From Bacteroidales bacterium (GTDB taxonomy: Bacteria; Bacteroidota; Bacteroidia; Bacteroidales; P3): 49,181 nucleotides of DNA. The stretch covers positions 1-49,181 of the forward strand of contig JAKSMP010000011.1 of the NCBI GenBank assembly GCA_024400505.1. Reading direction: 5' to 3'. Below are positions 8,067 to 40,501 of this stretch, in pieces. Below the pieces are notes generated by a model. It made no database searches, was not told the origin of the DNA, and was given only the letters and a program-made list of their open reading frames with translations. The translations under genes and the position numbers were made by a program. The stretch's first letter is position 1; each line of letters starts with the position of its first letter.

Positions 8067-8306
8067 CCTACCCATATATTTTTTTCACCCCCAGGGTTGA
8101 ATATTTTTGTGGGTAATACTTCATTTTTCAAAACCCCACCCTTAATTATTCTCAGACCCGGGTCTAAATATTTTCAAACCCGGGTCTAAATATTCTCAGA
8201 CCCGGGTCTGGATATTTTCAAACCCGGGTCTGAAGAAATCCAAACCCGGGTTTGGAGAAATTAAAACCGGGGTCTGAGTAAATTAAAACCCCGGTTTTAG
8301 AAAATA
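8067..8306. repeat. Tandem array of 22-bp palindromic units
   Basis: Seven clear units of exactly 22 bp begin at 8153, 8175, 8197, 8219, 8241, 8263 and 8285. Each has a core close to the palindrome AGACCCGGGTCT, then an AT-rich spacer such as AAATATTTT. About four weaker copies extend leftward to 8067. Conservation is highest in the middle and decays on both sides; the last two units read ACCGGGGTCT and ACCCCGGTTTT. The period is not a multiple of three and there is no stop-free frame of gene-like composition, so the array is noncoding. Confidence 0.9.
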
Positions 8307-8331
8307 TAACTATACCATCAAAGAAAAAACA

Positions 8332-8397
8332 CCATACCCTAGAAAATAAAAAACCATAGTGTAGCACAAATCCAACCATGACCTGCGAATCCTCTGC
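8332..8397. repeat. Three weak 22-bp direct repeats
   Basis: Units starting CCATA or CCATG begin at 8332, 8354 and 8376, with spacing of exactly 22 bp; only the first ~5 bases and general A-richness are shared. They directly follow the palindromic array and keep its period but not its sequence. Confidence 0.4.
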
Positions 8398-8456
8398 AGA
8401 AACACAATTTAACAAAACGACCAAAACAGCAACCCAATCATTATTCAAGAAATTCG

Positions 8457-8464
8457 TATATTTG
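8457..8464 (+). promoter_or_regulatory. -7 promoter box for the small protein and BspA-like lipoprotein
   Basis: TATATTTG fits TAnnTTTG. It implies a leader of about 220 nt (8470-8693) before the ATG at 8694. That leader is A-rich and shows no coding frame I can support. Confidence 0.5.
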
Positions 8465-8693
8465 CACACGGATAAACTAAAACACATAATACCATAATAA
8501 ACAGTATAGCACAATATACCACAAAGTTAGAAGCGAACAGCCATTAAAAACTACAAGCCCAAACACATGGAAAAGTGAGGTTACCGGATACTGACAAAAC
8601 ACCAAAGTAATAGAAATTACCGCCGACAGACACAGTTTGAAATAAAAAAAAGAATAAATAAGAATTAAAAATATATAAAAACATTCATAATTC

Positions 8694-8879
8694 ATGAAAA
8701 AGGCATACACAGCACCCAGAATCATCGTGGTGAAAATAGACGTAGAAGCTGGATTCCAAAGCAGCAACTTCACCACCAAAACCATCTATGAGAACACATT
8801 ACAAGAAAGCATGCAAACCGAAGGGCTTTTCCACCAAAAAACCTCTAACAACGAAGAGCAGCACTTTTTCCTCCGATAA
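8694..8879 (+). CDS. Small conserved-type protein preceding a fimbrillin-like lipoprotein
   Basis: This 61-residue protein begins MKKAYTAPRIIVVKIDVEAGFQSSNF. Short proteins with the same layout (MKK-x-Y-x-x-P, then hydrophobic alternation and an E-x-GF motif) are common in Bacteroidota just before surface lipoprotein genes; their function is not known to me. It has no signal peptide. The lipoprotein ATG at 8899 follows after 19 bp, so the two probably form one transcript from the promoter at 8457. Weak composition and short length limit certainty. Confidence 0.7.
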   Translation: MKKAYTAPRIIVVKIDVEAGFQSSNFTTKTIYENTLQESMQTEGLFHQKTSNNEEQHFFLR

Positions 8880-8898
8880 CCCACAACACATTAGCACT

Positions 8899-10593
8899 AT
8901 GAGAAGAACATCCATCATCAAAGCCATAATCATATTTATCGCCATGTGTTTCACCTCTTGTCAAAAGGAGGAAGACGGAACCACCACCTTCAAGGCTAGA
9001 CTGGAAAGCAACGAAGGGAAAATAGAACTCCGAGACGACGGATATTTCAATTGGCAGAACAGCGACCGCGTGGATATCAACGGACAAACGTTCACCGTGA
9101 TACCCAACACAAACAACACCACGTCCGCCACCCTCACTGGCCCGTCAGTGGGCGGACCCTACACCGCCATCTACCCGGCCAGCATAGTTGATAACGGGCA
9201 GTTTACCCTTCCCACGCACCAGCATACCGCAACAGGCAATCTGCAAGATTTTCCTATGCGCGCTGTGTCCAACAACCACGAGCTGCAATTCTATAATCTC
9301 TGCTCAGCAATACGCATCCACATGCCTAGTTGCCAGCACCCAATTAGCCGTATCGAGGTGGTGTCAAACGGAACCCCAATTAGTGGAGCATGCACCATCG
9401 ATGAGGGCAACTGGCTATATACAAGCCACCCAGCCTTGAGAGCTAATGCTGTTAATAATGGCGGCATGAAGCGAATCACACTCGATATATCCAACCCACA
9501 GGTTTACAACACCAACGAAGGCCACGACTTCTATATCACCATCCCCTCACTGTGGTACAACGGTGAATTCACATTCTACTTTTTCACCAACGAAGGCCTC
9601 GTTTGCACTAGAAGACTTAATGTAGATGGAGGATTTGGTCTCATGCGTAGCCAAGTGACCACACTAGATTTTGATGGCGAAGTGCCCATGGTATTTGAGC
9701 AAGGTACAGCTCAACTAAAAGAATGCGCCTTCAACGGGAAACCGACCATCACAAAAATCATATTCCACTACAATTCTGACGAATACTCCGAAGAGCACAT
9801 CGAAGCCGAAAACTCCATACCCATCTATATTATAATGGATGGCACAGAATGCCATGTTCACACCTTGGCCAACTTCATTGAGTGCCCTGCCGGATGCAAT
9901 AGTTTGTTTGCCAACTGTCTGCAATTACAAAGCATTGAATTCAACAACGACGACGAAAACAACCGAGGATTCCGAACCACCAATGTCACCAATATGTTTC
10001 GAATGTTTGAAGCATGCCAATCCCTCACATCGATCGACTTGTCTAGCTTCAACACCTCTAATGTGACAAACTTTAAAGAAATGTTTAAAGACTGCGCTGC
10101 GCTCACATCATTAAATCTCAGTACTTTCAACACAGGCAATGCAACTACCATGAGCAATATGTTTCACGGCTGCACTAGACTTACTAACATCACATTCCCG
10201 ACCACCTTTACCACTAACAATGTAACCAATATGGAATTCATGTTCTACAATTGCAACGCACTCACCAGCCTGAATTTATCTCACTTCAACACAACAAATG
10301 TCACCACTATGGAGAGCATGTTCCTCAATTGTCAGAGCCTCACCAGCCTTAACTTGACCAACTTCACAAGCAGCAACAATTTGAACATCAGTTCAATGTT
10401 CAGACAGAGTGGGCTTAGGGAAATCCGCTTAAGCCAATCATTCAGTCCCGCCATAGTGACAGGAGCATGCAACGGACTGGGAACGCAAACCGAGCACTGC
10501 CACATCTACTGCAGTCCCACTTTAGCAAGCCAACTAAGAACAGATGGGGAAGCTAGAGAGACAGTTGAGTTTCACACCACTACCACAGAATAG
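8899..10593 (+). CDS. Fimbrillin-like lipoprotein with BspA/DUF285-type repeats
   Basis: The 564-residue product starts with a lipoprotein signal ending CFTSC (Cys21). The open frame reaches 8788, but that extension overlaps the small gene at 8694 and lacks a signal peptide. Residues ~25-290 form a fimbrillin-like domain related in layout to the lipoprotein at 4537 (FNWQNSDRVDING against TNWQVGDQVYING). Residues ~360-515 hold about six repeats of ~24 residues of the form NVTNMxxMFxxCxxLTSLxLSxFNT, typical of DUF285/BspA-like leucine-rich surface repeats. A surface-exposed binding role is inferred. A terminator follows at 10623. Confidence 0.88.
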   Translation: MRRTSIIKAIIIFIAMCFTSCQKEEDGTTTFKARLESNEGKIELRDDGYFNWQNSDRVDINGQTFTVIPNTNNTTSATLTGPSVGGPYTAIYPASIVDNGQFTLPTHQHTATGNLQDFPMRAVSNNHELQFYNLCSAIRIHMPSCQHPISRIEVVSNGTPISGACTIDEGNWLYTSHPALRANAVNNGGMKRITLDISNPQVYNTNEGHDFYITIPSLWYNGEFTFYFFTNEGLVCTRRLNVDGGFGLMRSQVTTLDFDGEVPMVFEQGTAQLKECAFNGKPTITKIIFHYNSDEYSEEHIEAENSIPIYIIMDGTECHVHTLANFIECPAGCNSLFANCLQLQSIEFNNDDENNRGFRTTNVTNMFRMFEACQSLTSIDLSSFNTSNVTNFKEMFKDCAALTSLNLSTFNTGNATTMSNMFHGCTRLTNITFPTTFTTNNVTNMEFMFYNCNALTSLNLSHFNTTNVTTMESMFLNCQSLTSLNLTNFTSSNNLNISSMFRQSGLREIRLSQSFSPAIVTGACNGLGTQTEHCHIYCSPTLASQLRTDGEARETVEFHTTTTE

Positions 10594-10622
10594 AAAATTC
10601 CCGCCCATCCAATATTGATAGC

Positions 10623-10655
10623 AAAACCCCAGGCTCCAAAGTCTGGGGTTTTTGC
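10623..10655 (+). terminator. Terminator after the BspA-like lipoprotein
   Basis: A perfect 10-bp stem AAAACCCCAG/CTGGGGTTTT (10623-10632 with 10643-10652) ends in a T run. Confidence 0.9.
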
Positions 10656-10711
10656 ATTGAAATAGTTGGAAATAGACTGATAAATAATTATGATATGTCA
10701 GAAAAAATTCG

Positions 10712-10719
10712 TATCTTTG
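10712..10719 (+). promoter_or_regulatory. -7 promoter box for the EFR1-xylE genes
   Basis: TATCTTTG fits TAnnTTTG and lies 37 bp before the ATG at 10757. Confidence 0.65.
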
Positions 10720-10756
10720 CAAAATAATAACATATATTGAAACAATACATAATAAT

Positions 10757-11521
10757 ATGATATTCTACTTTTCAGGATTGGGCAACAGCCAATATGCGGC
10801 CAAGACTATTTTGAATGAAGGAGAACGCCTTTTCATCATCCCCGAAGTGGAGCGCAACCACTGCTACGAATTCACACTAGACAAGGATGAGCGGCTAGGA
10901 TTTGTATTTCCGGTCTATTCTTGGCGCGCCCCTCGGCTGGTGAGTGAATTCATAGAAAAGATGCAACTCAATGGCAAACCAAGCTACACATTCTTTGTGA
11001 CCACCTGCGGCGACGACTGCGGCAAAACCGAACAACATTTCCGCCACGACTTGCAACGCAAAGGCATCACACTGGATGCCGCCATAGCCATACAAATGCC
11101 CAACACCTATGTGAACCTGCCAGGAATGGACGTGGACTCCGAGGAAATTGCAAAAGAAAAACTGAGGAAAGCTCAGATCCGCCTAGCAGAGATCAAAGGG
11201 ATATTGGAACGGAAGGAAAAAGTGTCGCAGATGATTATTACCGGAGCAGCCATGCTGAAGAGCGATATTATACAGCCTTTGTTTTATAAGTACTTGGTGA
11301 CCGACAAAAAATTTCGCACAACTAATGCATGCGTGGGTTGCGGCATCTGCGCCCAAAGTTGTCCGCTGGAGAACGTGACCATGATTGACGCACGCCCCCA
11401 TTGGAACGGACACTGCACCACATGCATGGCATGCTACCACCACTGCCCCCACCACGCTATCCAATTTGGCAAAGCCACTGCAACCAAAGGACAATATTTT
11501 TTTAAAGACTCAAAAAAATAA
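10757..11521 (+). CDS. EFR1-family ferredoxin (flavodoxin-like plus two 4Fe-4S clusters)
   Basis: The 254-residue cytoplasmic protein begins with a flavodoxin-like domain (MIFYFSGLGNSQYAA, the phosphate-binding loop that reads SGTGNS in most relatives). It ends with two 4Fe-4S sites: CVGCGICAQSC near residue 193 and CTTCMACYHHC near residue 219. This fits the EFR1 family of electron-transfer proteins, whose partners are mostly unknown. The stop is only 6 bp before xylE, so co-transcription is likely. A link to sugar metabolism is only positional. Confidence 0.9.
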   Translation: MIFYFSGLGNSQYAAKTILNEGERLFIIPEVERNHCYEFTLDKDERLGFVFPVYSWRAPRLVSEFIEKMQLNGKPSYTFFVTTCGDDCGKTEQHFRHDLQRKGITLDAAIAIQMPNTYVNLPGMDVDSEEIAKEKLRKAQIRLAEIKGILERKEKVSQMIITGAAMLKSDIIQPLFYKYLVTDKKFRTTNACVGCGICAQSCPLENVTMIDARPHWNGHCTTCMACYHHCPHHAIQFGKATATKGQYFFKDSKK

Positions 11522-11527
11522 GAAAAT

Positions 11528-12988
11528 ATGAACACCACCCAGACTCAAGGCAGCAAAGGCTACCTATTCTCGATTGTTTTGGTTGCCGTGATCGGCGGCC
11601 TGCTTTTCGGCTACGACACCGCCGTGATCAACGGCGCAGAGAAAGGCCTCCAAGCATTCTTTATGCAAGGGGGATTCAACTACTCAAACTTCATGCATGG
11701 CATCACTTGTTCATCGGCGTTGATTGGCTGCGTGATAGGCAGCGCCCTGTCGGGCCTGTTTGCCAGCCGACTGGGGCGCAAACGGTCGCTTTTCTTTGCC
11801 GGAGTGTGCTTCTTCTTGTCTGCTGCAGGCTCTTTCTACCCCGAGTTCTTGTTCTTCAACAAGGGCGAAGCATCTATGGGGCTGCTCGTTGCATTTAACC
11901 TCTACCGCATACTGGGCGGCATCGGTGTGGGCATGGCATCGGCTATCTGCCCCATGTACATTGCCGAAGTGGCACCCAGCAACATGCGTGGCACCCTGGT
12001 GAGCTGGAACCAATTTGCCATCATCTTCGGCCAACTGGTGGTGTATTTTGTCAGTTTCCTTATTGTGGGCAACCACGTTATTCCCGCCATAGAAAGAATG
12101 GTGGTGGTCAATGCCGCTGAGGCGCAATGGAGCATACAGGAGGGATGGCGACTGATGTTTGTGAGCGAATGTGTGCCTGCCGGACTGTTTGCGTTGCTCA
12201 TCCTCTTGGTGCCCGAAACCCCACGCCATCTGGTAATGACCGGCAAAGACAACAAAGCCTTGGAAGTACTCACCCGAATCAACGGCGAAACTAAGGCGAA
12301 AGAAATCCTCGCCGAAATCAAATTAACCACAGTGGAGAAGAAAGAGAAATTATTCACATACGGTTTTCTGGTGGTATTCATCGGCATCATGCTGAGCGTA
12401 TTCCAGCAAGCGGTGGGCATCAACGCAGTACTCTACTATAGCACCACCATCTTTGCATCCATGGGCATGGAAAATCCGATGGTGAACACCGTGGTGATGG
12501 GTGTGGTGAATATCCTTTTCACCCTAATAGCCATCTTCACAGTGGAAAAGTTGGGCCGCAAACCGCTGCTTATCACAGGCTCGATAGGAATGGCCTTGGG
12601 TGCGTTTGGAGTTGCCCTTTGCAGCATTTTTCCCACAATGCCACCAATCTTGAATGTTATCAGCATCATTTTCTACTCGGCATGCTTCATGTTCAGCTGG
12701 GGACCCATCTGTTGGGTGCTTATCAGCGAAATTTTCCCCAACACTATCCGCGGAGCAGCCGTGGCTATCGCCGTAGCATTCCAATGGATTTTCAACTTTA
12801 TCGTGAGCAGCACCTTCGTGCCGATGTACAACCTTGAGCTTGGCTCAATGGGCAGCAACTTCGGTCACCTACTAGCCTACGGCCTGTATGGAGTGATGTG
12901 CGTGGTGGCAGCCATATTTGTGTGGAAACTTGTGCCAGAGACCAAGGGCAAAACCCTGGAAGAGATGAACAACTTGTGGAAGAAGTAG
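11528..12988 (+). CDS. xylE: D-xylose:H+ symporter, MFS sugar porter
   Basis: The 486-residue inner membrane protein has the sugar-porter signatures: GGLLFGYDTAVINGA in helix 1, RLGRKRS after helix 2, PETPRHL at the end of the first half, QQAVGINAVLYYST in helix 7, EKLGRKPLL, and PETKGKTLEE at the C-terminus. It imports a sugar with protons. Xylose is assigned because xylA and xylB lie downstream on the same strand and because of overall similarity to XylE. Two unrelated genes separate it from xylA. The stop codon region carries a short direct repeat, GCTTAGTAGTTG (12988 and 13004). Confidence 0.9.
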   Translation: MNTTQTQGSKGYLFSIVLVAVIGGLLFGYDTAVINGAEKGLQAFFMQGGFNYSNFMHGITCSSALIGCVIGSALSGLFASRLGRKRSLFFAGVCFFLSAAGSFYPEFLFFNKGEASMGLLVAFNLYRILGGIGVGMASAICPMYIAEVAPSNMRGTLVSWNQFAIIFGQLVVYFVSFLIVGNHVIPAIERMVVVNAAEAQWSIQEGWRLMFVSECVPAGLFALLILLVPETPRHLVMTGKDNKALEVLTRINGETKAKEILAEIKLTTVEKKEKLFTYGFLVVFIGIMLSVFQQAVGINAVLYYSTTIFASMGMENPMVNTVVMGVVNILFTLIAIFTVEKLGRKPLLITGSIGMALGAFGVALCSIFPTMPPILNVISIIFYSACFMFSWGPICWVLISEIFPNTIRGAAVAIAVAFQWIFNFIVSSTFVPMYNLELGSMGSNFGHLLAYGLYGVMCVVAAIFVWKLVPETKGKTLEEMNNLWKK

Positions 12989-13090
12989 CTTAGTAGTTGA
13001 GTGGCTTAGTAGTTGCGGCAACAGTTAAACTAATAAGCAATTGAGCCGTCGCACACTCCGCATTAATGCAGTTAATAATAACAGCCTCAG

Positions 13091-13357
13091 ATGAAACAAA
13101 GCACCCTCACAACAAACAAGTTGGCGATAATCTACTTCGCCACCTATTTGATTACCACGATAATGCTTTCGACTCCGGACTTCTTGCAACTCCCACATGA
13201 TTTCTATGGAAGTATGCAATACATTGCCCCAGCAGCCTTTGTCTTGTCGAGTGTAATCATGCTTGGCGTAGTTATAGCAGATATGATCAAACTGCATAGA
13301 GCAGAACCAAAATCGAGTAGAACAGCAATAACCCATCGCGATGCAAGACCCATTTGA
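13091..13357 (+). CDS. Small two-helix membrane protein
   Basis: This 88-residue protein has two predicted membrane segments, about residues 11-27 (LAIIYFATYLITTIML) and 43-65 (YIAPAAFVLSSVIMLGVVIA), and a basic C-terminal tail. I do not recognise the family. Its end overlaps the start of the fic gene by 17 bp, which suggests co-translation. It could be a partner or anchor of Fic, but this is only positional inference. The overlap also leaves some chance that it is not translated. Confidence 0.6.
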   Translation: MKQSTLTTNKLAIIYFATYLITTIMLSTPDFLQLPHDFYGSMQYIAPAAFVLSSVIMLGVVIADMIKLHRAEPKSSRTAITHRDARPI

Positions 13358-14501
13358 AGAATATCTGAGACAAGGCGAACCCGATAGTGCCAAACGTGCC
13401 GAATTATGGCAAGTGGCCATCGGCCTGCAAGCCGTGGATGGACTCAAACCGTCGAACTACCTCATTGAAACCGCACAAAAACACATTGCCTGCGAATATA
13501 CAATTGATGAGGTGGAAAGCCGCATCAGTGCCTATTACAAATCGGCAGAAAGCCGCAAAGAAGTAGAGGGCACGGATGAAGCAGACATCGTGGCATCGCG
13601 TATCACAAGACTGCTGTCTGAGAAAAAGTTCAGCTTCACACCAGCCATGCTCGCCTCAATCCACCGAGAACTCTTTGTGGGAGTGCTGACCAGGGCAGGC
13701 AAATACCGCCAATTCAATATCACAAAAAAAGAATGGGTGCTAGACGGAGACACCGTGCTATATGCACCATGCGACATGTTGTCGGCAACACTCGACTACG
13801 ACTTCTCGCAAGAAAAAGCTTTCTCATACAAAGGCCTCTCAATCCAAGAATCAATAGCCCACATTGCCAAATTCATTAGCGGTATTTGGCAGATACACCC
13901 CTTTGCCGAAGGCAACACTCGCACAACGGCAGTGTTCACCATCAAATATTTGCAATCGCTAGGCTATGATGTGAACAACGACCCATTCAAGCAACACTCC
14001 TGGTATTTCCGCAATGCCTTGGTGAGAGCCAATTATCGCAATTTGGCTAAAGATGTAGAGCGCACAACAGAATACCTAGAACGATTCTTCCGCAATCTAC
14101 TGCTAGGCGAAAACAACGAACTCAAAAACCGATATCTCCACATTAGATGGAACACCACCGACGACAACAACATCGTACAAGAAAACTACATACCCTTCAA
14201 CAGTATAGAAAGTTCGGTACAAAATGAGAAAAACACGGTAAAAACGAAGAAAAGTTCGGTAGAAAACAGAAAAAGTTCGGTACAAACACCCAAAGATTCG
14301 GTAGAAAAAGAAAAAAGTTCGGTAGAAATCATTCGCATGATGGCAGAAAATCCCAAAATAACGGCAGCACAAATAGCCAAGAGACTGGGAATAACCATGA
14401 GGGCGGTAGAAAAGCAGATTGCAAAACTTCGGACCAATGGGATCATCAAACGTGTGGGACCCAACAAAGGCGGAGTGTGGGAAATAATAGAGAAACAATA
14501 A
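13341..14501 (+). CDS. Fic-family protein with heptad-repeat linker and winged-helix tail
   Basis: Fic proteins usually transfer AMP to hydroxyl groups on target proteins. This 386-residue protein has a Fic core with the motif HPFAEGNTR (186-194), which keeps the catalytic His and acidic Glu. The canonical GNGRxxR becomes GNTRTTA, a variant I know from Bacteroidota Fic proteins. An RKEVEG stretch (72-77) sits where class II proteins carry the inhibitory S/TxxxEG, with the Ser/Thr out of register. Residues 291-332 are six heptads of the form SSVxxxK, encoded by 21-bp repeats. Residues ~333-380 form a winged helix-turn-helix (ITAAQIAKRLGITMRAVEKQI). It sits inside the xylose cluster. Confidence 0.9.
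   Translation: MQDPFEEYLRQGEPDSAKRAELWQVAIGLQAVDGLKPSNYLIETAQKHIACEYTIDEVESRISAYYKSAESRKEVEGTDEADIVASRITRLLSEKKFSFTPAMLASIHRELFVGVLTRAGKYRQFNITKKEWVLDGDTVLYAPCDMLSATLDYDFSQEKAFSYKGLSIQESIAHIAKFISGIWQIHPFAEGNTRTTAVFTIKYLQSLGYDVNNDPFKQHSWYFRNALVRANYRNLAKDVERTTEYLERFFRNLLLGENNELKNRYLHIRWNTTDDNNIVQENYIPFNSIESSVQNEKNTVKTKKSSVENRKSSVQTPKDSVEKEKSSVEIIRMMAENPKITAAQIAKRLGITMRAVEKQIAKLRTNGIIKRVGPNKGGVWEIIEKQ
14211..14336 (+). repeat. Six 21-bp tandem repeats within fic
   Basis: Units start at 14211, 14232, 14253, 14274, 14295 and 14316. Four start AGTTCGGTA; the other two read AACACGGTA and GATTCGGTA. Each encodes one heptad of the linker between the Fic core and the DNA-binding tail, so copy-number change would keep the frame. 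Confidence 0.9.
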
Positions 14502-14540
14502 AATAGATAATTTAATGAATAATATATAATAAGCACAACT

Positions 14541-15854
14541 ATGAAACAGTTTTTTCCTAACATCGAGAAAATCAAATACGAAGGACCCGAGTCTAAGAAT
14601 CCCATGGCATTTCGCTACTATGATGCCGAGCGTGTGGTCAACGGCAAGAAAATGAAAGATTGGATGAAATTTGCCATGGCTTGGTGGCACACCCTTTGCG
14701 CTGAAGGCACCGACCAATTTGGCGGAAACTCCAAGGTTTTTCCCTGGAATGCAAAACTTGCCACCGACCCCATTGCTGCCAGCAAGGAAAAAATGGATGC
14801 CGGGTTTGAATTCATGACCAAACTGGGTATTGAATATTTCTGTTTCCATGATGTGGATCTGGTACCCGAAGCAGAGACGGTGGAAGAATACGAAAAGAAC
14901 TATGCCACAATGCTAGAATATGCTGAGCAAAAAATGCACGAAACCGGCATAAAGTTGCTTTGGAGCACTGCCAACGTTTTCGGTCATCGCCGCTACATGA
15001 ATGGTGCGGCAACCAACCCCGACTTTGATGTGGTGGCCCGTGCTATCGTGCAAATCAAAAACAGCATAGATGCCGCTATAAGATTAGGAGCCACCAACTA
15101 CGTGTTCTGGGGTGGACGAGAGGGATACATGTCACTCCTAAACACCGACATGAAACGCGAGAAAGACCACCTGGCCATGATGTTGCGCATGGCTCGCGAC
15201 TACGGCCGCGCTCATGGTTTCAAAGGCACTTTCCTTATTGAACCCAAGCCCATGGAACCTACAAAACACCAATATGATGCCGACACAGAAACCGTCATTG
15301 GTTTCCTACGCCACTATGGTCTTGATAGAGATTTCAAGGTGAACATTGAAGTCAATCATGCCACATTGGCTGGCCACACTTTTGAGCACGAGTTGGCATG
15401 TGCTGTAGATGCCGGTATGCTAGGGTCGATTGATGCCAATCGTGGTGACTATCAGAATGGCTGGGACACCGACCAGTTTCCCATTGACCATTATGAACTG
15501 ACTCAAGCATGGATGCAGATATTGCGCAACGGAGGATTCCACGATGGCGGGACCAACTTTGACGCCAAGGTGCGACGCAACTCCACCGATCTCGATGACC
15601 TTTTCATCGCTCATATATCGGGCATGGATGCAATGGCCAAAGCTTTCTTGGCAGCAGTAGAGATTGCCGAGAATTCGCCCATTCCCCAGATGGTGAAAGA
15701 TCGCTACACCAGTTTTGACAGTGGCATGGGCAAACGTTTTGAGAATGGAGAACTCACCCTTGAAGACGTTTACAACTACGGGAAGCAGGTGGGCGAACCG
15801 AAGCAAACTAGCGGTAAGCAAGAGTTGTACGAAACTATCGTCAACATGTACTAA
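14541..15854 (+). CDS. xylA: Xylose isomerase
   Basis: XylA interconverts D-xylose and D-xylulose in the cytoplasm using two divalent metal ions. The 437-residue product is a class II enzyme of normal length. The catalytic His is in CFHDVDLVPE (around 101-110). Other marks are NYVFWGGREGY, the metal-binding IEPKPMEPTKHQYD, IEVNHATLAGHTFEHEL and IDANRGDYQNGWDTDQFP. All expected active-site stretches are present. xylB starts 2 bp after the stop, so the two are one operon. No clear -7 box is visible in the 39 bp after fic. Confidence 0.98.
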   Translation: MKQFFPNIEKIKYEGPESKNPMAFRYYDAERVVNGKKMKDWMKFAMAWWHTLCAEGTDQFGGNSKVFPWNAKLATDPIAASKEKMDAGFEFMTKLGIEYFCFHDVDLVPEAETVEEYEKNYATMLEYAEQKMHETGIKLLWSTANVFGHRRYMNGAATNPDFDVVARAIVQIKNSIDAAIRLGATNYVFWGGREGYMSLLNTDMKREKDHLAMMLRMARDYGRAHGFKGTFLIEPKPMEPTKHQYDADTETVIGFLRHYGLDRDFKVNIEVNHATLAGHTFEHELACAVDAGMLGSIDANRGDYQNGWDTDQFPIDHYELTQAWMQILRNGGFHDGGTNFDAKVRRNSTDLDDLFIAHISGMDAMAKAFLAAVEIAENSPIPQMVKDRYTSFDSGMGKRFENGELTLEDVYNYGKQVGEPKQTSGKQELYETIVNMY

Positions 15855-15856
15855 TC

Positions 15857-32070: not shown

Positions 32071-32093
32071 CTGGCTCCATTATTATGAGTTTG

Positions 32094-32264: not shown

Positions 32265-32288
32265 TTTTCGGTTAGGTCTTATATACCA

Positions 32289-32729: not shown

Positions 32730-33103
32730 TTTATTAATCTCCTATTTTTTGTTTTGTTTATTATTTTTTTGTCTTTGGCTTTTGTCTCAACCGCCGACGC
32801 CCTATATATTATCAAGCACCATGCCGCCATCTTTTCCCTGTCAAAATTACCGATTGTGAGTTATTTTAACCAATCCGATATTGCCAAAATTACCGAACTT
32901 AGATAAAGCCGAGCCATCACGATAGCTATATCCTCACATTTTAGGTCCCTAATAATGACGTGCCGAGAAAGGGGAAACGTTATTATTTTGCTACACAAGA
33001 AGGACTTTGGGCCTAATGACGACAATTTTTAATTGGCGGCTAGACAAGGAATCCATAACTGATGCCAAGCAAAACACCTAGCATCTGCCCCCAAACACAG
33101 CCC

Positions 33104-33218
33104 AAGTTAAGGCCTCCTTGGATCATAAGTTAAGCCAACCCGCAGCCATAAGTTAAGGCTTGCCTTGGTCTTAACTTACGCCTCGCCTCAGTCCTAAGTA
33201 ATGACGAGAAGCGGCTTA
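33104..33218. repeat. Five 23-bp tandem repeats, AAGTTAAG type
   Basis: Units start at 33104, 33127, 33150, 33173 and 33196, with spacing of exactly 23 bp. The first three begin AAGTTAAG and the last two diverge to AACTTACG and AAGTAATG. The rest of each unit varies but is G/C-rich. Confidence 0.8.
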
Positions 33219-33314
33219 TCCCAACCCTCAAACCAACCCGCGCCATCGCAATAAATATAATTTGATAACAAAGCACATACAGAATTGTTTGTTGGTTATT
33301 CACTTTTCCTCAGC

Positions 33315-33403
33315 AGATATATGGTTTACGTTCGTCAGGTATATGGTTCCTCGTCGTCAGATATATATCTCCCGACCATCGAGATATATGGTTGCTGCGC
33401 GTT
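33315..33403. repeat. Four 22-23 bp tandem repeats, AGATATATGG type
   Basis: Units start at 33315, 33337, 33359 and 33382 (spacing 22, 22, 23). The first ten bases are AGATATATGG with one or two changes, followed by variable C/G/T-rich sequence. The array ends 46 bp before a promoter box. Confidence 0.8.
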
Positions 33404-33448
33404 AAAGATTATATCTATCTTAAATCACAACGAACCAATAATTATTCG

Positions 33449-33456
33449 TATCTTTG
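33449..33456 (+). promoter_or_regulatory. -7 promoter box for the small lipoprotein gene
   Basis: TATCTTTG fits TAnnTTTG and lies 23 bp before the ATG at 33480. Confidence 0.65.
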
Positions 33457-33479
33457 CAAACTATTCAAACTAAAGAAAA

Positions 33480-33887: not shown

Positions 33888-33934
33888 ATGGGCAAAAGTG
33901 ATCATCCACACCTTTTGACTTTTACCACAAAACT

Positions 33935-33972
33935 AAGAAAGGCGGCAACCTTGCGGTTGCCGCCTTTCTTTT
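33935..33972. terminator. Bidirectional terminator with 16-bp stem
   Basis: The left arm 33935-33950 and right arm 33955-33970 are perfectly complementary (AAGAAAGGCGGCAACC and its complement) around a TTGC loop. It serves the lipoprotein gene and, on the other strand, the M16 protease gene. Confidence 0.94.
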
Positions 33973-33984
33973 CGCCCAAATCCA

Positions 33985-36864
33985 CTAGAACTTGAAAAGT
34001 TGATTATACTTATATTCTGTGATAGTGGTTCCGGGACCCAAAATATTGGCTAGTTCTTTCACTTTAAATCGTTTTGCATTGCCCGATATCACCACAGTAA
34101 TGGGACGACCCTTGATGTACTTGGCATGGAAAGCCTGCAAGTCTTCAATCGTGAGTTTGCTGATTTTGTTGGTAATCTCGGCACGGCGGTCGGTTTTCCA
34201 ACCTTCATGTTCCATGGCGTTGAAAACAAAATCGGGCAAATTGCGGAAAGTAAGATAAGAGCTATTGCGAGCTGTCACCTGATGCTCAGCAGCAGGAGCA
34301 AACTTGTCGGGGCGGACAGGGAAATTCACCATAAGGTCTTTCATGGCCTGCACACCATCGTTGGTCTTGTCGCATTGGGTACCTAAGAAGCAGTACTGCA
34401 TGGCTGGGTTGAGGTTACGGGTATCACAACGGAAATGGCCGTAGGTAGAATAGCCCAGCGAACGGAACTCGCGAATTTCTTGAAACACCACACTATTCAT
34501 TCCGCTTCCAAAATATTCATTATAAAGATTAGCAACAGCAACATCAGCAGTATCAAAGTCAATTGATGTTTGCATGAAAGCAATGTCGGACTGAAGGAAT
34601 TTCTTGTTGTGAGCATAGATAATACGAGAATTAGGAGCAGACAATTCTTTGCGATCACGGAAACCGACCACTTCCACATCGTCGCGAACCAAACCATGCT
34701 GACGAATCTTTGCGCAAAGATCCTCTGGAGAGGTGTTGCCCACAAAGGTAGCATGTCCATTGCGGCCAAATATCTTCAACACCTTGGCATGCAAACTCTC
34801 GCCCGTGCAAGAAGCAAGTTCTTTATAGCTCATACGGTTGAGTGCTCTAGATTGCTGCCCGTAACTGACAATCTCGGACAAGGCATCAAACCATTCATCA
34901 GAAGAAGATTTAGAAGCCTTCTTCTCTGTTTTAATGCCTTCAACCAGTTTGCCAATCTGTTTGGAATCATGCGTGGGGTTGAACATCATTTCAGTAGCAA
35001 TAGATAGTATGGTATCAATATTCTCTTCCAAGCCCGAAATCACAATGGCAGAACTGCTCATGCCAGCAGAAAAATACACACTACCGCCAAACTGATCAAG
35101 AAGTTGATTGAGCTGCTGAGGATCCATACCTGCTGCACCAACAGCACTCATATATTGATCTGCATAAGGCAGATTGGGGTCATCCAAGACGCCATAATTG
35201 TAATGGAGTTTAAGCTCGAAAAGGCCGTTCTTGGGATTATTCACGCTATAGAGTTTGGTGCTGGGCGAAAGCTGCGTGATGGCAACATCTTTCTCGAAGT
35301 CGATACGCTGAGGCTGAATAGGATCTGGCTGGCTAGCAAAAATCATTTTAGCAAAAACGGATTGTTCGCCTTGATTCTGTGCTTCCAGGTGATCCCAGGC
35401 GGGCTTCACAGCTTCGTCGTGCTTGGGGAACCCCATCTTGGAGCGGACAATGGTGCAATGGTTGCGGTTGAAATATTTATTGGCCACTTCAATAATTTCG
35501 TCGCGAGTAAGGTTTTTCCAACGCTCGCCGTCGCGCAGCCATTGTTCATAGCTGCTGCCTTCCATCTCCAGTTGCAGAAGGAGTTGAGAAATGCTGGAGA
35601 TACCCTCTATACGACGTTGGAGGCTCACCAATGCGGAGTTCTTAACACTCTGCAACAGTTCGTCGGAGAAAGCACCCTGCTTGATGCTGTCAATACAATC
35701 CCACACAATTTGTTCAGCAGCCTCATGGCTTTGACCAATAAGGTTGGGCACGTAAAGAACCACATTGGTGCCAGCATCCTCCAACTCAAGAGGCATAAGC
35801 TCGGCAGCAAAAAGGCGTCCATCGGTCACAGCCTTATCCAGCAATCCGCTGCCGCCGCCCAAAATGCTTGCAAGCATACCCAAGGGAAGGCAGTCGGGGT
35901 CGGAATTCTTGACACCCGGGAAACTAATGATACCCATCTTGATGGGAGTTTGGTTCACCTCCACAATTCGCTGTTGGTCGAAAGTAGGCAGCTTGTAGGC
36001 TGGCTGCTGGGGGAGCGGAGCACTACGCCAAGTGGAGAATTTCTGGGCAATGAGTTTTTTTGTTTCAGCGGTATTGAAGTCACCCACCAAGATGAGCACC
36101 ATATTGTTGGCCACATAGTATTTCTGGAAGAACTCTTCCATCTTACTCGGCTGTGGGTTTTTGAGGTGTTCGCCCAAGCCTATCACATCACGGCTGTAGG
36201 GGTGCTCGCCAAAAGCCTCTTTTAAGATATTGGTTCTAAAGTCGTAGCCCATCTGATTCTCATACATGTTTTTCTCCTCATACACGGCTTCCAACTCCGA
36301 CTGGAAAAGACGAAAAATAGGACGACGGAAACGCTCCACATACACATCCATCCAGTTGTTGAGTTGGTTAGATGGCAGGGTGTTGTAATAGACCGTGTAG
36401 TCATAACTGGTTCCCGCATTGAGGCCCGTGCAGCCCATCTTCTGCAATATGGCGTCAACCTCGTTGGGTATTGCATACTTGGAAGCAGCAATATTGAGTC
36501 GATTGATCTCAAGCTGGATGGCCTGGCGTTCGGCAGGATTCTTGGTGGCGTGCAGGCGGTCGTAGGCTTCGGAGATGGAGTCAAGATAAACCTTCTCGGC
36601 TTTCCAGTTAATGGTGCCAATTTGGTCGGTACCTTTGAACATGATGTGCTCAAAATAGTGAGCCACACCAGTAAAGTTTGGATCCTCGTTCTTGCTGCCA
36701 GCATGAACCATCACACACCCATACACCTTGGGCTGGCTGTGCTCTTCGCAAAGGATCACCTTAAGACCATTGTCCAGGTGGTAGGTTTCCACCTTCAACG
36801 GCTGCTGAGCCCACAGACTCACTACTGCAGCCAGCATCAATGATAGAAATAATGTCTTCTTCAT
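33985..36864 (-). CDS. M16-family zinc metallopeptidase, exported
   Basis: The 959-residue protein has a signal peptide ending LWAQ and a two-half M16 (insulinase/pitrilysin) layout. The inverted zinc motif HYFEH lies in GVAHYFEHIMFKGT near residue 68, and the third ligand lies in ELEAVYEEKNMYENQMG. The second half (from about residue 480) lacks the zinc motif, as usual. Such enzymes degrade peptides in the periplasm. It follows the gntR gene after 71 bp. I see no clear -7 box in that gap, so it may share the gntR promoter. Confidence 0.93.
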   Translation of the reverse strand: MKKTLFLSLMLAAVVSLWAQQPLKVETYHLDNGLKVILCEEHSQPKVYGCVMVHAGSKNEDPNFTGVAHYFEHIMFKGTDQIGTINWKAEKVYLDSISEAYDRLHATKNPAERQAIQLEINRLNIAASKYAIPNEVDAILQKMGCTGLNAGTSYDYTVYYNTLPSNQLNNWMDVYVERFRRPIFRLFQSELEAVYEEKNMYENQMGYDFRTNILKEAFGEHPYSRDVIGLGEHLKNPQPSKMEEFFQKYYVANNMVLILVGDFNTAETKKLIAQKFSTWRSAPLPQQPAYKLPTFDQQRIVEVNQTPIKMGIISFPGVKNSDPDCLPLGMLASILGGGSGLLDKAVTDGRLFAAELMPLELEDAGTNVVLYVPNLIGQSHEAAEQIVWDCIDSIKQGAFSDELLQSVKNSALVSLQRRIEGISSISQLLLQLEMEGSSYEQWLRDGERWKNLTRDEIIEVANKYFNRNHCTIVRSKMGFPKHDEAVKPAWDHLEAQNQGEQSVFAKMIFASQPDPIQPQRIDFEKDVAITQLSPSTKLYSVNNPKNGLFELKLHYNYGVLDDPNLPYADQYMSAVGAAGMDPQQLNQLLDQFGGSVYFSAGMSSSAIVISGLEENIDTILSIATEMMFNPTHDSKQIGKLVEGIKTEKKASKSSSDEWFDALSEIVSYGQQSRALNRMSYKELASCTGESLHAKVLKIFGRNGHATFVGNTSPEDLCAKIRQHGLVRDDVEVVGFRDRKELSAPNSRIIYAHNKKFLQSDIAFMQTSIDFDTADVAVANLYNEYFGSGMNSVVFQEIREFRSLGYSTYGHFRCDTRNLNPAMQYCFLGTQCDKTNDGVQAMKDLMVNFPVRPDKFAPAAEHQVTARNSSYLTFRNLPDFVFNAMEHEGWKTDRRAEITNKISKLTIEDLQAFHAKYIKGRPITVVISGNAKRFKVKELANILGPGTTITEYKYNQLFKF

Positions 36865-36935
36865 GTTTTGTATAATATTAATTGGTATTTATCAACTAAC
36901 GATAATAACTCGAATCCTCTCGGTTTATTATCTTT

Positions 36936-37286
36936 TCAATCATCCTGGAGCTGACGAAGGTCGTCAATGGTTATGCCCAGCAATTTCATCCGTTGAAAGA
37001 AGTAGGGCAGCTCCTCGGAGATAAAGTGTTGGCGGTTCAAGGCCAAGATGCGCTCTTTGGCATCAGCCGACACAAAGTATCCCACGCCTCGACGGTTGTA
37101 AATGATACCTGACTGCTGCAGATGATCAAATGTGCGCATCACAGTATTGGGGTTCACACCCAACGAACCTGCCACTTCGCGCACCGAGGGAATCCGCTCA
37201 TCCACAGCCCACTCGCCAGCCATAATTCGCTGACTCATCGTATCTGCTATCTGCAAATATATTGGTTTCTGCTTATTAAAATCCAT
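36936..37286 (-). CDS. GntR-family regulator, YtrA type
   Basis: The 116-residue protein has an N-terminal GntR winged helix (KPIYLQIADTMSQRIMAGEW, then IPSVREVAGSLGVNPNTVMRTFDHLQQSGII) and a very short C-terminal part. That is the YtrA subfamily, which usually represses a linked ABC transporter operon. Two AGTGTA-type inverted repeats lie at the promoter of the upstream ABC operon. A separate -7 box (37301-37308) and a hairpin (37334-37368) suggest it can be transcribed apart from the ABC genes. Confidence 0.92.
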   Translation of the reverse strand: MDFNKQKPIYLQIADTMSQRIMAGEWAVDERIPSVREVAGSLGVNPNTVMRTFDHLQQSGIIYNRRGVGYFVSADAKERILALNRQHFISEELPYFFQRMKLLGITIDDLRQLQDD

Positions 37287-37300
37287 AATTCATACAATCG

Positions 37301-37308
37301 CAAAAGTA
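37301..37308 (-). promoter_or_regulatory. Possible separate promoter for gntR
   Basis: On the minus strand this reads TACTTTTG, fitting TAnnTTTG. The gap to the ATG at 37286 is only 14 bp, so the leader would be very short. Confidence 0.4.
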
Positions 37309-37333
37309 ATCCACTTGTATGTTACTCGATACT

Positions 37334-37368
37334 ATTGGCAACGACATTTCTTTCTTGCCGTTGCCAAT
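37334..37368 (-). other. Ten-base-pair hairpin between the DUF4097 gene and gntR
   Basis: ATTGGCAACG (37334-37343) pairs perfectly with CGTTGCCAAT (37359-37368) around a 15-nt loop. No T run follows on the minus strand, so it may be an mRNA-stabilising end or a weak terminator. Confidence 0.6.
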
Positions 37369-37394
37369 CGCATACTTGTTGCATTCATGATTGG

Positions 37395-38162
37395 TTATTC
37401 AAAGCGCACATCTCCGTCTATGGCTTTCACATCCACCACGCATTCGTAAACTCCCCTCACAACAATATCTCCACTAACAGTATTGGCACTTATTGCATCG
37501 CAACCAACAATATTCTTCAGAAACACGTCGCCGCTAATATTATCAACCGACAGTTTCTTGCATCGAGCATCCAATATCTCTACATCGCCACTAACGGAGG
37601 TCAGCTCGGCTTTGTCAAATTCGCCTTCCTCGATATCCGAATCACCAGATACAACATTAATCTTCAACTGTCCACAATTCATATTCGACAATTTGACATC
37701 AGAATCCACACCATTGATATAAATGCGATCCAACTTGACCTTTGCCGGTACCCGCACAATTAGTTCCTTTTCACAGTTTTCATCGGAGAATGGCACCTCG
37801 CCCGGGCGACAGAAACGTACCTGCAGTTTGCCATCGGAATCAAGCTTGCGGCACATCTGCTGGATACTGTCCAACACATCATGTCCTTCATTCGATTCTA
37901 CCAACTGCACTTCTTGTCCATCCCAGCTTTGCAAAACCACGTTGCCAAACAGCCAATCAATATCAAGCGACCGCACAGGCTCGGAAAGCGTACCGCCGCC
38001 TAGCACATAGGATTGGGCATCATAGTCGTCAATCGAATATTCTATGCCAGTAAAATGCGTATCACCTCGCTCCGAATCCGAATTGTAAACAACCCTCACG
38101 CAGCTCTCCAACCCCAGCATCAAGGCCAAGGAAGCCATCAAATAAAACACAACATTTTTCAT
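37395..38162 (-). CDS. DUF4097-type putative adhesin lipoprotein
   Basis: The 255-residue protein has a lipoprotein-like signal ending LESC (Cys21). From about residue 60 it consists of repeated short beta segments with the motif VSGDV or VSGDI (SVSGDVEILDA, NISGDVFLKN, TVSGDIVVRG), which define DUF4097 and form a beta-solenoid-like sheet. The family often lies beside ABC transporters with GntR or sigma-factor control. It is the third gene of the ABC operon, 24 bp after the permease gene. Confidence 0.88.
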   Translation of the reverse strand: MKNVVFYLMASLALMLGLESCVRVVYNSDSERGDTHFTGIEYSIDDYDAQSYVLGGGTLSEPVRSLDIDWLFGNVVLQSWDGQEVQLVESNEGHDVLDSIQQMCRKLDSDGKLQVRFCRPGEVPFSDENCEKELIVRVPAKVKLDRIYINGVDSDVKLSNMNCGQLKINVVSGDSDIEEGEFDKAELTSVSGDVEILDARCKKLSVDNISGDVFLKNIVGCDAISANTVSGDIVVRGVYECVVDVKAIDGDVRFE

Positions 38163-38186
38163 AATTCCAACTACAATATTTTATTT

Positions 38187-39008
38187 TTAATAAGTCATCT
38201 TTTTGATTCTGTGTCCGCTCCACCAAATCAACAGAGCCGAAAACACCATATTGGCTCCGATATTTGCCCATATAATGTTCTTCACCAGTAGTGCCGGATC
38301 AGCATCACTCAATCGAATCACCCATTCTTCCAAAGAGCCATTTATTAAGCCTAAAGAAATCAATGGAGTTACCACTATCTGTAAAGCAAAAGAAATAATC
38401 CATACCCAAAGTATTGTCTTCCAAAACTTATGTTTCTTGAAGATAGTATTCGTAAAGATGAAGGTTGACGACATACAAATCAGTTCCGACACGAAAAGCA
38501 TAAGCCACATGCTAGGACTGAGCAAAATGTCCAGTAACGCATCACTATCCACCTGAGCAGGGTCCAGAGTGATAACAGGATTCCATACCCACTCTTTATA
38601 AGGGCCAAAGGGCAGAATCGTAAGGATTGTATCTGCCACCAATCCACCCACCAAGATCATCAATGGGCACACCACAATGCACATGAGCAGCATGCTCAAG
38701 TATTTTTCCAACTTCGAAGCTGGCAACATGGCAAAATACACACCCTCCTTGGGTCGATTGCAGCTGCCATACAAGCTCGAAGGAGCCAATATCGAGGCGA
38801 GGACAGACATACTCAACATCACCCCCCAGCGGAAGAAAGGATTAATATCGCTAATATAAGTCATATTATTGATAATACTCCAGAAAATCCATACTGCCAG
38901 AGGCATCAATGCCAGAATGAGCATCGTAACGCCAAAACGATGCCAAATATCCATTATATCTTTGCGGACAAGGTTTCCGAAACGGGTCCAATCAAATGTA
39001 TTATTCAT
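38187..39008 (-). CDS. ABC transporter permease-type membrane protein
   Basis: The 273-residue protein has about six membrane segments (VTMLILALMPLAVWIFW, MLLMCIVVCPLMILVGGLV, ILWVWIISFALQIVV and others) and no conserved catalytic motif. It lies 49 bp after the ABC ATPase gene on the same strand and is the natural membrane partner. The substrate is unknown. YtrA-regulated transporters in other bacteria are often tied to envelope stress or cell-wall antibiotics. Confidence 0.85.
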   Translation of the reverse strand: MNNTFDWTRFGNLVRKDIMDIWHRFGVTMLILALMPLAVWIFWSIINNMTYISDINPFFRWGVMLSMSVLASILAPSSLYGSCNRPKEGVYFAMLPASKLEKYLSMLLMCIVVCPLMILVGGLVADTILTILPFGPYKEWVWNPVITLDPAQVDSDALLDILLSPSMWLMLFVSELICMSSTFIFTNTIFKKHKFWKTILWVWIISFALQIVVTPLISLGLINGSLEEWVIRLSDADPALLVKNIIWANIGANMVFSALLIWWSGHRIKKMTY

Positions 39009-39057
39009 TATATATTGTTTTATATTGTTGATTACTACTTATGGCTGATTTCTATTC

Positions 39058-39891
39058 TTAATTATTTTCAAACAACCTTTTGATTGTCTCGCGGTTGCGC
39101 AAAACAGCATTGAACAATCCCTCGATATTCACTTGAGTCTCGCGACCATCATGGTTTACGCACACATTCAGGCACCCGCCAGGCAATTGCTCGGAGTACA
39201 ACGCCTGTGGATTGGGCGACAAATCATAATCGAAACTGAGCTTGCGAGTGATGGTGTCGATATCGGCGTTTAGCAACACATCATCTTGGGTGAGAATGAT
39301 GATGGGATCAATCAAATTCTCCACATCTTTCACCTGATGGGTGGAAATGATGATGGTGGTACCCTCGGACACACGCTTGGACAACAAGGTGCGGAAGTCG
39401 GCTTTCGAAGGAATGTCCAAGCCGTTGGTAGGCTCGTCCAGCAGCACATAATCAGTACCCAAAGAAAGCGCACAAGCGATGAGCGACTTTTTCTGCTGAC
39501 CATAGCTCATCTCTTTAAATTTGCGTTCGGGGTCAACCTCCATCTCTTGCATCAGATGAAGGAATGTGCCATAAGCATAGTTGGGATAGAAAGGGGCTAA
39601 TTCATTTATATATTGCATGGGAGAGGCATAATCGGGCAACTGAACCGCATCGGGCAGAAATACCAGATTCTCCAAAAACTGGGGCTCACGCTCAAAACTG
39701 ACGCGACCATCCACCATGCAAGAGCCCATCTGAGGGCGTTGAAGGCCACTAATGATTTTCAAAAGGGTGGTCTTGCCCACTCCGTTTTCGCCCAAAAGTC
39801 CGTAGATACTCCCCTTTTCAAATGTCATGCTGATGTTGTGAAAAACAGGAGTCTTTTTGTACCCAAAGTCCAAATTCTTTATTTCAATCAT
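39058..39891 (-). CDS. ABC transporter ATP-binding protein
   Basis: The 277-residue ATPase has Walker A GENGVGKTT (residues ~34-42), a Q-loop region near LPDAVQLPDY, the signature MSYGQQKKSLIA (a variant of LSGGQ), Walker B YVLLDEPTNGLD and the switch histidine in ISTHQV. A C-terminal tail of ~60 residues follows. It is first in the operon, with a promoter and operator-like repeats just upstream. Confidence 0.95.
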   Translation of the reverse strand: MIEIKNLDFGYKKTPVFHNISMTFEKGSIYGLLGENGVGKTTLLKIISGLQRPQMGSCMVDGRVSFEREPQFLENLVFLPDAVQLPDYASPMQYINELAPFYPNYAYGTFLHLMQEMEVDPERKFKEMSYGQQKKSLIACALSLGTDYVLLDEPTNGLDIPSKADFRTLLSKRVSEGTTIIISTHQVKDVENLIDPIIILTQDDVLLNADIDTITRKLSFDYDLSPNPQALYSEQLPGGCLNVCVNHDGRETQVNIEGLFNAVLRNRETIKRLFENN

Positions 39892-39934
39892 ATTTTGTTG
39901 TTTTTTTGCTTATTTTCTGCTCACAATCGTCATA

Positions 39935-39956
39935 GTGTATTAGCTTACTAAGACAC
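39935..39956. promoter_or_regulatory. Operator-like inverted repeat at the ABC operon start
   Basis: GTGTATTA and TAAGACAC flank six bases (one mismatch in the palindrome). With one more base on each side it reads AGTGTA-N12-GACACT. It begins 2 bp downstream of the -7 box (39959-39966, minus), over the expected transcription start, a good position for repression by the GntR protein. Confidence 0.65.
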
Positions 39957-39958
39957 TG

Positions 39959-39966
39959 CAAATATA
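39959..39966 (-). promoter_or_regulatory. Promoter of the ABC operon
   Basis: On the minus strand this reads TATATTTG, with a TTG 19 bp upstream (39986-39988), fitting the Bacteroidota promoter layout. Confidence 0.65.
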
Positions 39967-40176
39967 CAACCATTTTTTCAATCAGCAAGAAAAAAGTTAG
40001 ACATATCCCTCTTTTAAAACGCACACGAACCGCAGCACGACACATAATCACACTATTCTACAATCACTTATAATACGAACAATAACAAGAAAAAAATTCA
40101 ACCAACATACCCAATAAACGGATAACTATTGCCATTTTCAGCCATCAAAAACACAAAATTCGACACATTAAGCCTA

Positions 40177-40198
40177 GTGTATTAGTGCAATAATACAC
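40177..40198. promoter_or_regulatory. Perfect operator-like palindrome
   Basis: GTGTATTA-N6-TAATACAC is a perfect 8+8 bp inverted repeat, and its left arm is identical to that of the site at 39935-39956. It lies 242 bp further upstream of the ABC operon with no gene start next to it. Confidence 0.65.
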
Positions 40199-40270
40199 CT
40201 ATTTTCTACCAACAAAGTGCCTCCCATCATGTTACCTTATTGACGAGACACAAAGGCCCTAGTAACAAAC

Positions 40271-40336
40271 CTATACTTTAGCACCCTCAACCCAATACTT
40301 TAGCACCCGCTAACCTATACTTTAGCCTCTGCCAAA
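40271..40336. repeat. Three 22-bp tandem repeats, ATACTTTAGC type
   Basis: Units start at 40271, 40293 and 40315, exactly 22 bp apart. The shared core is ATACTTTAGC at position 3 of each unit (the last ends GCC), followed by variable C-rich sequence. Confidence 0.82.
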
Positions 40337-40364
40337 CATTACCCCACACTTCACATTCTTTTTG

Positions 40365-40501
40365 CCCTACCCTAAAACTCATCTTATCCCTACCCATAAA
40401 CAACTTTCACCCCTACCCATGAATACCTTTTATCCCTACCCTACGATAAAACTTATCCTTGCTTACGATAAAGCTCACCCCTACCCTACGATTGGAGATG
40501 G
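40365..40501. repeat. Six 22-23 bp tandem repeats, CCCTACCC type
   Basis: Units start at 40365, 40388, 40411, 40434, 40457 and 40479 (spacing 23, 23, 23, 23, 22). The core is CCCTACCC; the fifth unit is degraded to CCTTGCTT. Units 4 to 6 also share TACGAT. All G are on one strand, so the array is strongly strand-asymmetric. Confidence 0.82.

Follow-up and report, generated by a model that had tools for sequence, protein, structure and literature searches.

Intergenic arrays of the window and their period

The window analysed here, a stretch of 49,181 nucleotides from a Bacteroidales bacterium, is contig C3 of a 2,087,488-bp genome (81 contigs, completeness 73.48%), and between its genes lie short tandem arrays of 22- or 23-bp units. 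The genome carries about fifty such short intergenic arrays, which belong to several sequence families and are spaced at 22 or 23 bp. An initial annotation, made from the letters alone, had described five arrays in the window, and all five are present where it had placed them. The unit measures 22 bp at 8.1 kb, 40.27 kb and 33.3 kb (at the last with one of 23 bp), and 23 bp at 33.1 kb and 40.36 kb (at the latter with some of 22 bp); in each case it consists of a conserved core and a variable remainder (Table 1). The array at 8.1 kb continues as degraded 22-bp units to about position 8372, past the end first given. Tandem Repeats Finder detects those at 8.1, 40.27 and 40.36 kb but neither of the pair at 33 kb. 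One protein of the window has four named matches, all in Bacteroidales metagenome-assembled genomes (MAGs), one of them labelled horse faeces.

Period statistics were collected over 41 stretches, one of them the window, which add up to 778,645 bp or 37% of the genome; beyond this sample, we used extra stretches around arrays and pattern searches over the whole genome. Among the 63 tandem arrays of the sample, 23 have a primary period of 22 bp (15 arrays) or 23 bp (8 arrays), and none has one of 17–20 or 25–32 bp, which bears out the common period proposed in the annotation. A second peak is found at 7 bp (11/63). When places with three or more units are counted, lag 22 occurs 24 times and lag 23 nine times, as compared to zero for each of the lags 13, 17, 19 and 20; five composition-matched Markov surrogates of the sample gave no array at lag 22 or 23 against the 33 observed. 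Lags 14, 21, 28 and 35 contain multiples of heptamer repeats, and part of the lag-22 places are doubled 11-mers; since each array is allowed one primary period, most of these artefacts are removed from the first count, where the leftover errors are one "22" (L087 at 738) that is heptamer-like on inspection and one array of family B scored as 44. In a 400-kb draw that was not selected for arrays, 8 of the 13 noncoding loci with a period of at least 10 bp are at 22 or 23.

Other short-period arrays occur in the same genome. Heptamer arrays of the type (AGGTAGT)n are located at L069 5458-6353, L072 394-440 and L087 74-785, and different heptamers, such as (CTCAATT)n, are found in congeners. Arrays of 11-bp units resembling CTTCGCTGCTC lie at L021 10790-10885, L077 13712-13776 and L084 8101-8274; their doubled unit mimics a 22-bp period.

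Table 1. Repeat features of the window, with positions counted from its first nucleotide.
Feature	Position	Strand	Description
A element	8067..8372		22-bp-periodic imperfect inverted repeat; degraded end units flank the core array on both sides
C-like unit	8128..8147	+	one 22-bp slot left of the first A core, in register; C matrix score 11.8, single-position p 3e-5
A core array	8155..8297		seven cores ACC[CG][CG]GGT, near-palindrome CARACCCGGGTYTG, spacing exactly 22 bp
D array	33101..33218		23-bp units, core CTTAAGTTAAG, near-palindromic surround; grades into TAAGTAA cores
BD-element middle segment	33219..33314		between the D and B arrays of a dispersed 275-bp element; copies on C5, C34, C36
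B array	33315..33403	+	four 22/23-bp units, core AGATATATGGTT
F array	40273..40336	+	three 22-bp units, core ATACTTTAGC; within the genome only here
C array	40363..40501	+	23/22-bp units, core ACCCCTACCC
D-prime-type unit, TAAGC core	40452..40470	-	occupies one C-array slot; score 17.9, single-position p 4e-6

Core families, spacers and hybrid units

The core families were placed by whole-genome patterns with at most three mismatches, the places being tallied by hand from the match listings; these patterns missed a few diverged arrays, for instance the B arrays of C4 and C52 and the D array of C34. The A core ACCCGGGTCT was found at 5 places, the B core AGATATATGG at 17, the C core ACCCCTACCC at 8 and the D core CTTAAGTTAAG at 18. 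The F core ATACTTTAGC had no match in the genome outside the window, and its derivation from a diverged D core was rejected, the matrix hits being weak only. Four of the five cores thus recur elsewhere in the genome. With one strand counted per locus, the A consensus is TTTCAaACCCGGGTCTGAA (near-palindromic CARACCCGGGTYTG) and the D consensus gGtCtTAAGTTAAGaC; the wider symmetry of an earlier consensus from both strands is partly a product of counting both. Thus A and D have near-palindromic cores, and those of B (AGATATATGGTT) and C (TTTTACCCCTACCCAAAAA) are non-palindromic. Homologues of the A element lie on contigs C2, C55, C56 and C67.

What had been listed as two arrays, at 33.1 and 33.3 kb, proved to be the two ends of one dispersed element, hereafter BD. 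Its copies on C3 (the window), C5, C34 and C36 are 275, 275, 275 and 274 bp long, with pairwise identities of 76–82%. These four copies have 142–143 bp from the last D core to the first B core; the distance is 163–166 bp in three further cases and 176 bp in another. The arrays of the four copies contain no indel, as compared to nine pairwise gaps in the middle segment. Their alignment suggests that a unit resembles its counterpart at the same position of another locus more than its neighbour in the same locus. Many solo B, C and D arrays have homology confined to the array; the exceptions are C6, C18 and C28, which share 165–242 bp, and C15 and the C-array locus of C24, which share 131 bp away from the arrays.

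In the four BD copies, 8 of 75 core columns are variable against 49 of 85 in the spacers and 61 of 116 in the middle segment, so that cores differ from spacers (Fisher test, p 3e-10) and spacers do not differ from the middle (p 0.57). The four A copies gave 3/56 variable core columns versus 53/105 in the spacer, a comparison biased by the fact that A units are delimited by their own cores. Core-to-core spacing was then scored over the intervals within 3 bp of the period, with one strand per locus. All 28 A intervals are of 22 bp, 32 of the 33 D intervals and 21 of the 23 C intervals are of 23 bp, and B has 33 of 43 at 22 bp and 5 at 23 bp, the latter mostly at the step from unit three to unit four of BD copies. 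Core pairs 12–39 bp apart outside this range are few (A 1, D 0, C 7, B 4). This spacing is kept despite a spacer mismatch of 40–55% between contigs. Given the indel rate of the BD middle segment (0.041 per substitution), neutral spacers would be unequal in length in about 35–57% of pairs; the observed fractions are 0% for A, 6% for D, 17% for C and 40% for B. A constraint on spacer length is therefore supported for A, D and C, and not for B.

Conserved cores, free spacers and a fixed pitch together have the look of binding sites laid side by side. Ordinary minisatellites generated by slippage, free of selection and with a period shared by coincidence or through some quirk of the polymerase, would also be tandem, and the copy number of BrickBuilt arrays, discussed below, does differ among strains (PMC4596501). 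However, slippage copies entire units and here it is chiefly the cores that are kept; moreover, unit number and order within a family are alike at many loci, and the period is common to several families. We consider this origin improbable.

The annotation had called the cores completely different. This description holds for B, which together with four further arrays (L013, L023 at 283, L076 and L082) gave no strong cross-family hit in a scan of eight regions with five matrices, but some of the other families are linked by units in register, and one pair of arrays is, as described above, a single element. Beside the D arrays, exact agreement with the 23-bp register is seen for 16 of the 29 forward hits of the related D-prime core AAGCA, versus 1.3 expected (p 6e-15, in a test that includes a few loci that are copies of one another); the reverse core TGCTT has 3 of 10 hits at the same offset. 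In A arrays, outer slots contain C-like units both in the window (p 3e-5) and on C55 (p 9e-5), besides weaker C hits that are off register, and at L014 10533 D and D-prime units stand in one array. Since hybrid units in register occur for some families and not for B, the arrays are neither entirely unrelated nor a single simple family.

Genomic context, mobility and relatives

Considering 42 arrays, 19 lie in tandem, 12 in convergent and 5 in divergent gene gaps, 4 at contig ends and 2 inside short open reading frames (ORFs, 128 and 159 aa); two more overlap predicted ORF ends by 49 and 157 bp. The ORFs touched by these four arrays are taken as mechanical, so that the copies are intergenic and without coding capacity, as in miniature inverted-repeat transposable elements (MITEs). 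Among sampled gaps of at least 200 bp, arrays are present in 13/57 tandem, 3/28 convergent and 4/35 divergent ones. A role as promoter or terminator was rejected, as the gap context shows no clear bias and the orientation, judged by eye, is not constant.

The arrays could alternatively act in RNA, as long hairpins that are structured or mark transcription ends. Indeed, the A element folds far better than its shuffles (z -9.0 and -6.6). Folding is, however, also a by-product of palindromic DNA sites, and weak folding (z -1.3 to -2.5) is all that the BD and F/C regions show. The covariation terms are not favourable (+0.12 and +0.56, with two-sided changes in 4/44 and 3/60 pairs from four sequences each) and give no support to an RNA element, and no Rfam family matches within the window at gathering score. 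A function of this kind is thus very improbable.

Among the families searched in relatives (A, B and D), arrays of the window type were found in the source genome only. The B pair pattern (two mismatches) matches in 6 of 120 genomes of the genus, with 33 hits in the source genome and one two-mismatch hit in each of five others; the D pattern matches in 1 of 120, the source genome only, and the A pattern in 1 of 31 (the source genome, 18 congeners and 12 genomes from other families of the order). Thus, pattern searches for B and D (C was not searched in relatives) found arrays of the window type in none of 119 congeners. As for the period itself, 22 or 23 bp is seen in 0 of 18 arrays of the nearest congeners (11 genomes, 363,008 bp, 59–67% identity in one protein), in 1 of 50 of ten other congeners (341,926 bp) and in 0 of 7 of other families of the order (271,684 bp).

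Viral contigs were considered as carriers and rejected: stretches matched numbered 0 for B, 2 for D, 1 for A and 32 for C, and among those inspected, which were both D hits, the A hit and 6 of the 32 C hits, none was judged to be an instance of these elements. For instance, at L152 5786-5898 a repeat built on TTAAGTTAAGG in steps of about 11 bp recalls the D core, and L184 has a GGGGTAGG/AAAATTTTT make-up with a different unit length; the remaining inspected hits differ too. In four viral contigs (L154, L156, L159 and L174) there are direct repeats of 23 bp built on a CACCCCTGCA/CACCCCTACC core; these are distinct from the arrays described here.

Dispersal of this kind may point to non-autonomous MITE-like elements, as proposed for BrickBuilt, in which the arrays would be passengers or ends, the pitch ancestral, and no reader needed beyond a transposase that requires the cores. 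Consistent with this are the homology of many solo arrays over the array only (apart from C6, C18, C28, C15 and the C array of C24), the near-constant 274–275 bp of the BD copies, the failure to find B and D arrays in the searched congeners, the inverted-repeat layout of A, the hybrid units, and the several 22-bp TnsB sites at each end of Tn7-type elements (PMC9371665). On the other hand, neither terminal inverted repeats nor clear target-site duplications were evident by eye in the A or BD alignments, and the cores are still conserved after dispersal in both families tested (BD and A). The genome has three DDE_Tnp_1 matches and a single Y1_Tnp match, of the type of the tyrosine transposases associated with repetitive extragenic palindromic (REP) sequences (RAYT), at L109 842-1330 on contig C34. 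This only RAYT found carries its own, different palindromes on both sides and was rejected as the mover of the arrays, for which no cognate RAYT of the kind that accompanies REPs and bacterial interspersed mosaic elements (BIMEs) was found. Further palindromes related to those flanking the RAYT gene lie at L109 ~1540-1870; their sequence is unrelated to the 22/23-bp arrays. Altogether, a MITE-like origin is possible, although we hold it to be somewhat unlikely.

The annotation had extended the same process to a 21-bp repeat in fic. An in-frame 21-bp (7-aa) repeat is indeed present at 14209-14328 of the window, in the linker that joins the Fic domain to the winged-helix domain, but its attribution to that process is unsupported: of the three congener linkers read, those of G031 and G081 have this same in-frame 7-aa repeat (that of G018 does not), neither of these two genomes has a match to the B or D patterns, and period 21 is not special inside open frames. 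Since fic is 92% (G031) and 89% (G081) identical to that of the window, as compared to 66% for another window protein in G031, a recent transfer of fic is suggested. A further repeat of the window, with a 78-bp unit, lies at 10200-10366 within a gene (8788-10593) whose protein matches Pfam DUF285.

Across the genus, a wider regularity may exist, in that periods of 11, 22/23, 33, 44 and 55 bp recur with unrelated units in different species. The congener G011 (321,515 bp) has 32 arrays of other units, including periods of 22 (3), 23 (2), 33 (5), 44 (1) and 55 bp (1), and because of these arrays noncoding periods of at least 10 bp were tested as multiples of 11, after dropping arrays in open frames of at least 250 codons with a period divisible by 3 (4/63 in the source genome, 5/18 in the nearest congeners, 7/50 in the others, 11/32 in G011 and 2/7 in the order). 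Multiples of 11 account for 22/37 in the source genome (plus 8 at 23), 7/10 in the nearest congeners, 9/19 in other congeners, 0/2 in other families of the order, and 9/14 in G011, a genome chosen post hoc. Ten test genomes taken afterwards gave 2/7 (p 0.13), the loci of the four named MAGs 0/2, and a handful of further congener loci 2/2, one being the G011 array again. With neighbours merged, 14 of 31 loci in 31 congener genomes (nearest, other and test) are multiples of 11 (p 1.6e-7), a value that includes the data which suggested the idea; the independent test set alone, merged, gave 1 of 6 loci, which is not significant. The 11-bp quantisation is for this reason a lead and not a result. 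That intergenic arrays of the genus are made or kept in steps of about 11 bp, one helical turn, whatever their sequence, and that the 22/23-bp system is one species' expansion of this pattern, seems to us doubtful. Bacterial genomes are known to carry an 11-bp signal in the form of a base-composition bias, described in a paper whose abstract is silent on array periods (PMC4132750).

In the congener G119, the units of an 11-bp array (L094 1491-1637) pass gradually from an initial B-like core, GACATATGGCA, to GACAAGTGGCA and GATAAGAGGCA; one of the five single B hits falls inside it. This array, from a different species, shows cores drifting while the 11-bp register stays fixed. At L143 10499-10581 and L041 10010-10082, both from congeners, two neighbouring 11-bp arrays are inverted relative to each other and could form a single hairpin with steps of 11 bp.

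A shared pitch and its possible reader

The explanation that we propose, with about an even chance of being right, is that the arrays are dispersed intergenic arrays of binding sites, with one bound unit per 22–23 bp, which have spread as cassettes. Each unit would comprise one recognised core and a spacer that is merely spanned, which would place neighbouring sites at a constant pitch. Arrays of 3–7 units, solo or as the 275-bp D+B composite, would have been copied as cassettes to many intergenic places in the species, and cores would drift or be swapped unit by unit while the register holds, so that families with different cores share the pitch. The reader would be a protein, or several related proteins, and may be a transposase, a chromosome-organising protein or a regulator; the copying would probably be done by an enzyme acting on the arrays.

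The idea of one process or reader that measures length, already put forward in the annotation, stands in part: the shared period, the conserved cores and the free spacer sequence fit it, as does the fixed spacer length in three of the four families, with B as the exception. Its two helical turns hold only loosely, because 22 and 23 bp both exceed 21; phasing at exactly two turns was rejected.

Several points weigh against the binding-site explanation. B fails the spacing test (unequal-length fraction 0.40 versus 0.39 expected under neutral drift), and the indel expectations are based on few events. The in-register test was framed only after the units had been viewed. Core conservation could also be explained by recognition by a mobilising enzyme or by gene conversion. 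Neither 22 nor 23 is a whole multiple of 10.5, so that phasing on the same face of the helix would drift over several units. Finally, neither the gene context nor, by eye, the orientation is constant, and no reader gene was found in a search that covered two transposase families only.

Porphyromonas gingivalis is likewise a member of the Bacteroidales. Its BrickBuilt elements are the nearest described system that we found, with 23-nt tandem units of conserved and less conserved parts and 19 dispersed copies in ATCC 33277 (PMC4596501). They are described as always intergenic, flanked in 10 of 19 cases by predicted terminators or polyadenylation sites, predicted to form long stem-loops, and confined to P. 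gingivalis and P. gulae (PMC4596501). The 22–23 bp repeats of P. gingivalis mentioned in the annotation are borne out by the BrickBuilt authors, who cite earlier reports of 41-, 23- and 22-nt repeats in strain W83 (PMC4596501). BrickBuilt is, however, one sequence family with a leader, a tail, IS5-like terminal repeats and 1–22.8 units (PMC4596501), whereas here the pitch is common to several families, some of them linked by hybrid units, and the arrays are short and showed no terminal repeats of this kind.

REPs are palindromic repeats of 20–40 bp (PMC3733652). The REP/BIME systems with RAYT are intergenic and species-specific, with regularly spaced palindromic units that form mosaic and hybrid clusters and are bound by host proteins (PMC2817692); the present arrays resemble them in part, with cores that are near-palindromes in A and D and non-palindromic in B and C. 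Unlike in REP/BIME, the pitch here is base-exact in three families, and the RAYT of the genome is flanked by other palindromes. Elements of the Tn7 or Mu type have the same 22-bp site consensus at both ends, and the D and B arrays of the BD element differ from one another. As here, several 22-bp TnsB sites at each Tn7-type end have a conserved and a weakly conserved part, but one transposase binds all sites of an element (PMC9371665). The TAACTGA heptamer repeats of Beggiatoaceae, Cyanobacteria and five Bacteroidetes, proposed as binding sites, likewise form many short intergenic sets of direct repeats (PMC4679880); they have 7-nt units of one sequence, and the heptamer arrays of the sampled congeners differ in sequence. 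Among the papers listed by our searches of the open-access literature, none was seen to report several repeat families with a common 22/23 bp period.

Repeat elements are usually grouped by sequence, and here it is the length that is shared and the sequence that varies, which suggests a reader or copier with a built-in ruler. This offers a concrete route to the protein, namely whatever binds once per 22–23 bp. In eukaryotic satellites the monomer length outlives the monomer sequence, and the present arrays may be a bacterial case of the same behaviour; the 22/23-nt repeats reported in Porphyromonas would thereby gain a wider setting.

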